This document shows positions 54,337 through 60,699 of a stretch of DNA of 64,000 bases, piece after piece. Under the pieces are notes generated by a model. That model worked only from the letters and a program-made list of their open reading frames with translations, made no database searches and was not told the DNA's origin. Origin of the DNA: Actinomycetota bacterium (GTDB lineage: Bacteria > Actinomycetota > UBA4738 > HRBIN12); NCBI GenBank assembly GCA_040881665.1, contig JBBECT010000007.1:186001-250000 (forward strand), written 5' to 3'. A program made the translations under genes and the position numbers. Positions within the stretch are counted from its first letter, which is position 1, and the number at the start of each line of letters is the position of its first letter.

Positions 54337-55269
54337 GTGGCAGACATCTTCGTCGAGAGCTGGGCCCCCGAGTACGGCTCCCCTCTCGACAACGACGAGC
54401 AGCTCCGCCCGGCCGAGGGGTCCGTGGACCACACGGTCGAGGGCGTTGCCTGGTCGCCGATCGACGGACGCGACGACGGCGAGGCGGTGATCGCCTTCGT
54501 CGACGGCGTGCAACGCGTCGACGCTCGTCTCACGATCGACGACCCCGAGCAGGGACCGGTCCCCGGGCTGTGCGGCACGATCGCCGCCGGCGCGACGGTC
54601 TGGGAACGCGGCGTTCCCGTCTCGACGATCCAGGCGGCCGAGGTGGAACGCTGGGCCATCGTGGGCTCGGGTCGGTCCGAGTCGTTGCCGGTGATCGACC
54701 TGCACCCGGGCTATCGCACGACGCGCTCCTCGTCCGACGATCCGGCCCAGCTGATGCAGGCCCTCGGCGACCTGCGCCAGGCAGCCGAGCGGCGGATCGC
54801 GGCCCGGCTCGCCGAGTCCTGCTCGGTGATCGTCGACGGACCGGTGCACGAGCGTTCACCCGTCACCGTCGGATGCATCAAGCGCCACCATGTGACCTAC
54901 CTCGAACCCGCCGAGAACCGGGTCGTCGGCCGCCTCGGGTCGGGTCAGCGGACGCCGCTGTTCACGATCTCGAACCACCGCCGGTACGCGTGGTACGTGC
55001 GGTTGGCGACGCTGCGCGGTGGACATTCCTGGACCGGGATCGTGCGCTGCGAAACTCCCGCGCACGTTCCCCTCCCCGAAGCGGTCGCCGCCGCCGACCG
55101 CACGGCCGCCCTGTTGCCGGCCGTCGCCTCCGAGCCCCATCTCGATCCTCGCGCGCCGCAGAACCTCGTCCCGATCGCCGCGCTTGAACGCGAGCTGCGG
55201 CACCTGATGGGCGACCCCGGACTGGTGTTCCGCGCGCTGCGGGCTGCCGTGCACGCGGAGGCGTCGTGA
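54337..55269 (+). CDS. nurA: NurA-domain nuclease
   Basis: A 310-aa protein resembling NurA, the 5'-3' nuclease that works with the HerA translocase in DNA-end resection. Metal-binding candidates: the Asp in VIAFVDGVQRVDARL (motif I, about residue 53) and in CSVIVDGPVHERSP (later motif), with conserved His/Tyr in the C-terminal part (YAWYVRLA). The start is the GTG at 54337, supported by TAGGAT 7 nt upstream. Its stop overlaps the herA start as GTGA. The order nurA-herA-sbcD-sbcC points to one repair complex. Confidence 0.85.
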   Translation: MADIFVESWAPEYGSPLDNDEQLRPAEGSVDHTVEGVAWSPIDGRDDGEAVIAFVDGVQRVDARLTIDDPEQGPVPGLCGTIAAGATVWERGVPVSTIQAAEVERWAIVGSGRSESLPVIDLHPGYRTTRSSSDDPAQLMQALGDLRQAAERRIAARLAESCSVIVDGPVHERSPVTVGCIKRHHVTYLEPAENRVVGRLGSGQRTPLFTISNHRRYAWYVRLATLRGGHSWTGIVRCETPAHVPLPEAVAAADRTAALLPAVASEPHLDPRAPQNLVPIAALERELRHLMGDPGLVFRALRAAVHAEAS

Positions 55270-58169: not shown

Positions 58170-60699
58170 GCTGACGCTCGACGGGTTCCGCTCGTACCGG
58201 ACCGCGCAGACCTTCGAGTTCCGTGATCGGAGGCTGGTCGGCATCGTCGGCGAGATCGGATCCGGCAAGTCCTCGGTCCTCGACGCGATCGCATTCGCGT
58301 TGTTCGGCAAGACGCCGACGATCGCGAGCAACACGAAGTCGCTGATCCACCAGTTGCGGGACGACTGCCACGTCGAACTGCGGTTCGCCGTCGGCGAGGA
58401 CGTGTGGCAGATCCAGCGCGCGCTGCGCCGCAGAGGGCAAGCCGGGCACAAGCTCGTGCGGCTGGCCGACGACACATCGGATGCGGCGGAACTGGACCCG
58501 ATCACGGGCGACGACGCGACCAAACGCAGGGTCGAGGAACTGCTCGGGATGGACTTCGAGACCTTCTGCCGGTCCGTGCTGCTCGCGCAGAACCGCTTCT
58601 CGGAGTTCCTTCGCGCCTCGGCCGGTGAACGCGACAAGGTGCTCAAGGGCGTGTTCGGGTTCGAGCGGCTCGATCAGGCCCACGGGGTCGCCAAGCGCCG
58701 GCTCGAGGCCGTCACCGATCGGTTGTCGAACCTCGCCGCCGATCGAACCCGCCTCGAGCAGGTGATCGCGGAACTGGCGACGGCGCGGCCGGCTGCCGTC
58801 GCCGCCGCCGAGCGCGCCGACCTGCTCTCCGGACACGCCGAGGAGGTCGCCTCCCTGCGCGCCGATCGCGAGGAAGCTCGCCGCGCGCTCGAGCAGGCAC
58901 GAGCGGCGACCGACGAGCTGGCGTCGATCGCAGGCCAGGCGCCGGCAGACGATGCCGTTCTCGACACGGTGCAGCGAGCGGGTGCGGCGAGGGCTCAGGT
59001 GGACGAAGCACGCGCAGCGGTCGACGAGGCCGCGCGACGGCGCTCGGAACGGGAGCGAGCGCGCACCGAGCTCGTCGAGCGGCTCGGTGACCCCCAGCAG
59101 CTCGGATCGTTCGGCGCGCTCGTCGAGCGGCGCGAGGCGGCCGTCCGAGGCCTGGAGGCGAGCGAGCGACAGGCCGAGGTCGCCGCGCGCGCCGCCGAGC
59201 AGGCCGAGCGGCACGCCGAGAAAGCGCAGGCGCAGGCGGACGCCGCTGCGGCCGCACACGACCAGACCGAGGCGGCCGTCGCGACGGCGCAAGCCGATCT
59301 CGAGCGGGTCGAAGACGAGCGGCGCGCGGCGCATCGCGCCGAGATGGCACACGAGCTCCGCGCGCATCTCGCCGTGGGCGATCCCTGCCCGGTGTGCGAA
59401 CGCGCCGTCGATTCCACCCCGCGCCGCAGGGCCGCGCCGAAGACCACCGCGGCCGAGAAGGCGGTGAAGAGCGCGAAAGCTGCGCTCGAGAAGGCACGCA
59501 AGGCGGAGCTGCGCGCCCGCCAACAGCACACGCGGGCCGAGAACGACCTCGCGGCCGCCCGGACCCAGCTCGAGACGAGCACCGCCGGTGCTGCCACGGC
59601 CGCCGGCCAGGCGACCGCGGCGCAGGAAGAGCTCGCCCGGGTCTCCGAAGAGCTCGTGGAACGGCTGGGCGAGGGCGACCCGCGTGCCCTCCTCGACGAA
59701 CGCATGCGCCTGCTCGAGACGGCCGAGCGCGACCTCGACGAGGCACGAGCCGAGCTCGAGCGCGCCGAGGCCGACGCGATCAGCGTCACCGACGGCGCGA
59801 CGACGGCGCTCGAGGCGACCGGCGCCCTCGCGGCACGGATCGTCGGCTGCTGGGGACGGCTCGGTGAGATCCGGGAGCCGGTCGCCGATCCCGGATCGCT
59901 CGGCGAGGAGCGCGCCGAGCTGCTACGGGCGATCGACGACCGGCGCAGCGAGGTCGGCGGACTCGTGTCGGACGTCACCGCCCGAGAACACGCCGGCCGA
60001 AAACGGCTCGATGAGATCGCCGCTGAGCTCGACATCTCCGATCTCGAGATGTTCGGTGATGCGCTCGCGCACGCGAGCGCGGAGCGCGGGTCGACGCAGC
60101 AGCGGGTCGTCGACCTCGAGGCCGAGGTGGAACGCGGAGCCGATCTCGAGCAGCGCGTGAGCAGTGACGAGGCGCGACGCACCCTGCTCCTGCGGCTGGA
60201 GAAAGACCTGCGTCCGTCCCGGTTCCTCGGCTTCCTGCTCGAGGAGGAGCGCGCCGAGCTCGCGGAGCTCGGGAGCGAGCATTTCGAACAGCTGACTGCC
60301 GGGGGGTATCGGTTCAGCGAGGACGATCGGTTCGACGTCCGCGACATGAACGCGGCCGGACGCCCCCGCAAGGCCGACAGCCTCTCCGGCGGCGAGACGT
60401 TCCTGGCCTCGCTCGCGCTGGCATTGGCCCTGGCCGAGATGGTCGCGCGGGGCGGCGGACGCCTCGACTCGTTCTTCCTGGATGAGGGCTTCGGCGGGCT
60501 CGACCCCGAGCATCTGGCCCTGGCGATGGAGGGGATCGGCCGGCTGGTCGCCGAGGACCCCGACCGGCTCGTCGTGCTCGTGAGCCACGTGCGGGAGATG
60601 CAGGACTCGATCGAGGACCTGATCGAGCTCGCGAAAGACGCGGTCACCGGCGATACGCGCGTGGTGCGTGGTGCCCGGGCCATCTCGGCGGGCGTGTAG
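58156..60699 (+). CDS. sbcC: SbcC/Rad50-type ATPase
   Basis: An 847-aa SMC-like ATPase. Walker A GEIGSGKSSVLDAIAFALFG is near residue 33, a first coiled coil runs to about 390, the zinc hook CPVC is at C411/C414, a second coiled coil follows to about 690, then the signature DSLSGGETFLASLALAL and Walker B SFFLDEGFGGLD. It is shorter than E. coli SbcC (1048 aa), the coiled-coil arms being short. The ATG at 58156 overlaps sbcD by 14 nt. It closes the nurA-herA-sbcD-sbcC operon. Confidence 0.95.
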   Translation: MRPLELTLDGFRSYRTAQTFEFRDRRLVGIVGEIGSGKSSVLDAIAFALFGKTPTIASNTKSLIHQLRDDCHVELRFAVGEDVWQIQRALRRRGQAGHKLVRLADDTSDAAELDPITGDDATKRRVEELLGMDFETFCRSVLLAQNRFSEFLRASAGERDKVLKGVFGFERLDQAHGVAKRRLEAVTDRLSNLAADRTRLEQVIAELATARPAAVAAAERADLLSGHAEEVASLRADREEARRALEQARAATDELASIAGQAPADDAVLDTVQRAGAARAQVDEARAAVDEAARRRSERERARTELVERLGDPQQLGSFGALVERREAAVRGLEASERQAEVAARAAEQAERHAEKAQAQADAAAAAHDQTEAAVATAQADLERVEDERRAAHRAEMAHELRAHLAVGDPCPVCERAVDSTPRRRAAPKTTAAEKAVKSAKAALEKARKAELRARQQHTRAENDLAAARTQLETSTAGAATAAGQATAAQEELARVSEELVERLGEGDPRALLDERMRLLETAERDLDEARAELERAEADAISVTDGATTALEATGALAARIVGCWGRLGEIREPVADPGSLGEERAELLRAIDDRRSEVGGLVSDVTAREHAGRKRLDEIAAELDISDLEMFGDALAHASAERGSTQQRVVDLEAEVERGADLEQRVSSDEARRTLLLRLEKDLRPSRFLGFLLEEERAELAELGSEHFEQLTAGGYRFSEDDRFDVRDMNAAGRPRKADSLSGGETFLASLALALALAEMVARGGGRLDSFFLDEGFGGLDPEHLALAMEGIGRLVAEDPDRLVVLVSHVREMQDSIEDLIELAKDAVTGDTRVVRGARAISAGV

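Follow-up and report, generated by a model that had tools for sequence, protein, structure and literature searches.

A nurA-herA-sbcD-sbcC operon with a predicted DNA damage-type promoter in Actinomycetota

Introduction

In archaea, the herA-mre11-rad50-nurA operon resects DNA double-strand breaks, and in bacteria SbcCD opens hairpins and blocked ends. A study on Sulfolobus describes an interaction between Mre11 and HerA (PMC2288612). Bacterial HerA-NurA has been described as limited to a small number of groups, Deinococcus-Thermus among them, and its role is controversial (PMC9960219). The Deinococcus radiodurans proteins (DrHerA and DrNurA) generate 3' tails via translocation-dependent 5' resection, and deletion of nurA-herA raises resistance to UV and mitomycin C about 10-fold (PMC9960219). 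The strand preference of HerA-NurA is reported differently in archaeal and bacterial studies. In D. radiodurans, which has neither RecBCD nor AddAB, nurA-herA is treated as an operon of its own, with no mention of sbcDC (PMC9960219).

In mycobacteria, a class of damage-responsive promoters (RecA-NDp) carries the consensus tTGTCRgtg-8 nt-TAnnnT (PMC5656591). Its regulator has been identified as PafBC (PMC8223512), which works via a -26 element and is activated by single-stranded DNA (PMC11804915).

Here we analyse a 64,000-nt stretch of DNA (the window) from an Actinomycetota bacterium, in which nurA and herA are joined to sbcD and sbcC. Its four functions are those of the archaeal operon, whose gene order is identical to one of two actinobacterial arrangements, herA-sbcD-sbcC-nurA. 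The window differs in its permuted order, in the bacterial type of its proteins and in the presence of a canonical AdnAB in the same genome. It also differs from D. radiodurans, in that its HerA-NurA coexists with AdnAB, is preceded by a PafBC-type promoter and is joined to sbcDC, and from the usual bacterial SbcCD, which is not in one operon with nurA-herA. Every component is already known.

Results and Discussion

Organization of the locus

The four genes lie on the forward strand at positions 54337-60699, and their open reading frames and junctions are exactly as initially described. The gene nurA (54337..55269, 310 aa, a bacterial-type NurA nuclease) is joined by a 4-nt GTGA overlap to herA (55266..56999, 577 aa, a bacterial-type HerA translocase ATPase), which is followed after a 3-nt gap by sbcD (57003..58169, 388 aa, an Mre11-family nuclease); sbcD in turn overlaps sbcC (58156..60699, 847 aa, a Rad50-family ATPase) by 14 nt. 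The first three start with GTG and sbcC with ATG. Upstream of nurA is a divergent aconitase gene, and downstream of sbcC, past a 107-nt gap and on the same strand, is an unrelated gene for a HATPase-domain protein, so that the transcription unit is most simply the four genes. The order and the overlaps recur in relatives, in keeping with the single operon first proposed.

Assignment of the four gene products

The window NurA, searched as a single sequence against PF09376, scores E 0.096, below the Pfam cut-off, and a PF09376 search of the window's own genome finds nothing; this is a problem of sensitivity of the Pfam model, which is matched by 20 of 29 NurA homologues at E <= 0.1 (best 5.3e-07), and it was resolved with a NurA family profile. 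The profile built from the 29 homologues matches D. radiodurans NurA (7f6d_H) at 1.1e-51 and Thermotoga maritima TM1739 (1zup_A) at 5e-21. An AlphaFold2 model (22-sequence alignment, pLDDT 83) matches 7f6d_G with E 1.5e-17 and TM 0.74, and the T. maritima and Sulfolobus solfataricus NurA structures more weakly. Residues D56, K182 and R272 correspond to D53, K201 and R309 of DrNurA, each of which is essential for nuclease activity (PMC9960219), and all three are invariant across the 29 homologues. The profile, the predicted fold and the catalytic residues indicate that the product of nurA is a genuine bacterial-type NurA, with a predicted nuclease activity.

The HerA profile matches DrHerA (7f6d_B) at 7.9e-184 over 560 positions, essentially the full length of the protein, and matches no archaeal HerA at a threshold of 0.01. 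The window protein shares 48% identity with DrHerA (the NurA pair about 33%), and K175, T176, D220, D487, E488, R495 and R552 of DrHerA are all kept. These include the Walker A residues (K167/T168 in the window protein), the Walker B residues (D451/E452) and the two translocation residues (R459 and R516, equivalent to R495 and R552). At the position of DrHerA R96 the window protein has Gln; mutation of R96 is without effect in DrHerA (PMC9960219). The non-canonical P-loop GISGVATKT might be taken to mark a dead ATPase, a reading we reject, since DrHerA has the same motif and binds ADP there; across 26 aligned homologues the core GVATKT does not vary. The structure model of HerA is mediocre (pLDDT 71) and was left out of the evidence for its identity. 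By sequence, the window protein is a HerA of the Deinococcus type, predicted to form a hexamer with DNA-dependent ATPase and translocation activity.

SbcD scores 157.7 bits against TIGR00619 (cut-off 77.65), and 163 bits against the bacterial SbcD model versus 47.6 against Mre11_Sulfo; its metal-site motifs (DWH, GD, GNHD, H182 and GHIH) are intact, and a profile search of the window's genome finds no second SbcD. SbcC matches TIGR00618 at 2.5e-52, under the curated cut-off. It is short for a bacterial SbcC but retains all its motifs (Walker A, a CPVC zinc hook at 411, LSGGE and Walker B), and like SbcD it fits bacterial models far better than archaeal ones. All four identities given in the initial annotation are thus borne out. 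Its description of the operon as archaeal-style is apt for the gene set, as an analogy with the archaeal operon, and fails for descent: with a NurA-HerA pair like that of Deinococcus and a bacterial SbcCD, nothing indicates transfer from archaea, and we reject that origin.

A RecA-NDp/PafBC-type promoter upstream of nurA

The initial annotation placed a leaderless-type promoter before the operon. A promoter is indeed predicted there, and it is of a more specific kind. The sequence GTC(CGGAGGGACGCA)TAGGAT (54309..54329, forward strand) sits 7 nt before the nurA GTG, making the transcript predicted to be leaderless or nearly so, and its GTC-N12-TANNNT spacing is that of the RecA-NDp consensus, with C at the R (A/G) position. 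The motif occurs in 32 of 35 regions upstream of nurA in relatives with the nurA-herA-sbcD arrangement, 6-8 nt from the start codon in 30 of the 32, whereas other spacings are found in 0-2 of the 35 and composition shuffles average 0.12. Counted gene by gene in the same loci, it precedes nurA in 31 of 34 cases, herA in none of 37, sbcD in 4 of 34 (sbcD being separated from herA in two of the four) and sbcC in none of 31. A wider sample gave 8 of 10 additional operons that begin with nurA, 8 of 14 that begin with herA and 9 of 13 separated sbcD genes; the sequences are related, so these counts are not independent events. The whole window contains 5 matches against 5.4 expected, so GTC-N12-TANNNT shows no general enrichment and is not the common promoter type of this stretch. 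A match on the reverse strand at 54325-54345 overlaps the start of nurA and faces the divergent aconitase gene, and may be either a chance occurrence or a second promoter.

In the window's genome the motif also precedes recA (GTCAGACCCCCTCGGTAGCGT; L079:3961, reverse strand) and adnA (GTCGGTGCCCCTGGGTAGCAT; L080:9849, reverse strand), and pafB and pafC (with HTH_PafC, WYL and WCX domains), pafA and the proteasome beta gene share one locus. The spacing of the motif, its position before the start codon and the proximity of pafBC to pafA and the proteasome are all as in the mycobacterial PafBC/RecA-NDp regulon, and on these grounds the operon is predicted to be damage-inducible through PafBC, which would bind at this promoter. 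The same motif stands before 12 of 15 stand-alone sbcD genes (L163-L177) from actinobacterial genomes that lack nurA-herA, mostly 6-8 nt upstream, so that sbcCD seems to have belonged to the regulon ancestrally. The literature searched contained no report of nurA-herA as a member. Conservation of the promoter would carry the RecA-NDp regulon into deep lineages of the actinobacteria, with sbcCD as a member.

Distribution in Actinomycetota

Scanning GTDB genome contigs and relatives yielded dozens of loci with the order nurA-herA-sbcD-sbcC, often with identical overlaps of 4 and 14 nt, which is more than chance assembly would give. Neither of the outcomes that the initial annotation named as refuting it, a first protein unlike NurA or a gene order missing from close relatives, was thus obtained. 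The spread of the genes was estimated from 346 evenly drawn Actinomycetota genomes, in which the HerA, NurA and SbcD searches were joined by coordinates. Bacterial-type HerA is present in 71 of the 346 (about a fifth) and NurA in 69 of these 71, while no bacterial-type NurA without HerA was found in the census. In most cases the pair lies with sbcD in either of two permuted arrangements: nurA-herA-sbcD is contiguous in 34 genomes, and 13 have herA-sbcD-[2.3-4.1 kb]-nurA, linkage being scored on these three genes only and the interval between sbcD and nurA holding sbcC in the examples that were fetched. The remaining loci are split by inserted genes or interrupted at contig ends. This linkage spans some 20 families. 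On a HerA tree (made quickly with FastTree, using a single distant outgroup) the two orders fall in separate clades, with only four herA-first loci in the sample, which suggests few rearrangements between them. Matches also came from metagenome-assembled genomes assigned to Myxococcales, Deltaproteobacteria and Acidobacteria (L058-L060); mis-binning is possible for these, and they were excluded as evidence for other phyla.

Four members of the window genome's own family (G001, G002, G005 and G007; 91-98% complete) are without nurA, herA and sbcD together. The module is therefore dispensable, and the joint absence would fit loss of the three genes as one unit.

The literature searched records neither a bacterial nurA-herA-sbcD-sbcC operon of such spread nor its damage-type promoter, and we claim no priority. 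The occurrence of HerA-NurA in about a fifth of the sampled Actinomycetota, tied to SbcCD and to a damage-type promoter, offers a physiological context for these enzymes.

Proposed function and alternatives

We consider it likely that the four genes constitute one DNA-damage-inducible operon for DNA-end processing. By analogy with the described systems, we infer the enzymatic activities of the four proteins and the order in which they act. Accumulation of single-stranded DNA would lead PafBC to steer the housekeeping polymerase towards the GTC-N12-TANNNT promoter, giving expression of all four genes. SbcCD would open blocked, hairpin or protein-capped ends; a HerA hexamer and a NurA dimer would then translocate on the duplex and digest chiefly the 5' strand so that a 3' tail remains for RecA, and the module would act alongside AdnAB. 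The effect on survival could have the opposite sign, because the higher resistance of the D. radiodurans nurA-herA deletion means that HerA-NurA may limit repair rather than promote it; by this analogy the pair may restrain or compete with repair, or degrade ends.

How closely the two pairs cooperate is a separate matter. Physical contact between HerA-NurA and SbcCD is suggested by their linkage and by the archaeal precedent, and we tentatively entertain the broader idea that many Actinomycetota possess a resection machine in which SbcCD and HerA-NurA are physically coupled under PafBC control and work beside AdnAB, a bacterial counterpart of the archaeal Mre11-Rad50-HerA-NurA pathway. The arrangement offers a testable case for this pathway in bacteria that also have a RecBCD-class enzyme. 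The four genes may instead encode two independent functions on one damage-induced transcript, HerA-NurA having been captured into the SbcCD regulon with no mechanistic cooperation. The presence of the motif before stand-alone sbcD genes is what this account would lead one to expect, and in several lineages herA or nurA-herA does lie apart from sbcDC. That the linkage persists in about 20 families, in either of two orders, speaks for a closer bond, as do the absence of NurA without HerA, the 14-nt and 4-nt overlaps, which suggest coupled translation, and the joint absence of nurA, herA and sbcD from the four near-complete family members; we hold the capture account to be less likely than not.

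Two further readings concern the role of the set as a whole. The initial annotation left it undecided between repair and a defence-like nuclease, and HerA-family ATPases do pair with nucleases in defence (PMC11291478). An anti-phage or anti-plasmid system of this kind would fit the weak PADLOC matches to HerA and LmuB models and a weak fold match to TdpAB. A search with defence models found no complete system, only partial single-model matches for HerA and SbcC, a very weak one for SbcD and none for NurA, and repair-type HerA and NurA are the best matches by far. The two flanking genes, for aconitase and the HATPase protein, include no evident defence gene, the module is not patchy but widespread within entire families, and its conserved promoter is shared with recA, adnAB and stand-alone sbcCD, which favours repair; a defence role is accordingly rated improbable. 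The same annotation noted that actinobacteria normally rely on AdnAB or RecBCD, and the gene content of the set is that of the archaeal operon, which might imply that it serves instead as the main resection machine, as in archaea. A search for adnAB, however, finds an intact AdnAB in the window's genome (two UvrD plus PD-(D/E)XK subunits); AdnAB-type nuclease domains occur in nearly all operon-carrying relatives, and most of these have two or more PF12705 proteins. The HerA-NurA-SbcCD module would thus add a second route rather than replace AdnAB, and such substitution is rated improbable.

Variant loci

Three groups of loci depart from the arrangements described above. In one family (L033, L038 and L087), an insertion of unrelated genes separates herA from sbcD, and the sbcD half has its own damage-type motif in L033 and L087, with none found in L038. 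One genome carries a second, divergent nurA-herA-sbcD set (G160:C15:13728-16941, reverse strand) beside the standard one, which could be paralogous or acquired. A weakly similar HerA-like/NurA-like pair with no SbcD match recurs in family f14 (e.g. G036:C1:2818042-2820307) and is possibly another NurA-HerA subtype.
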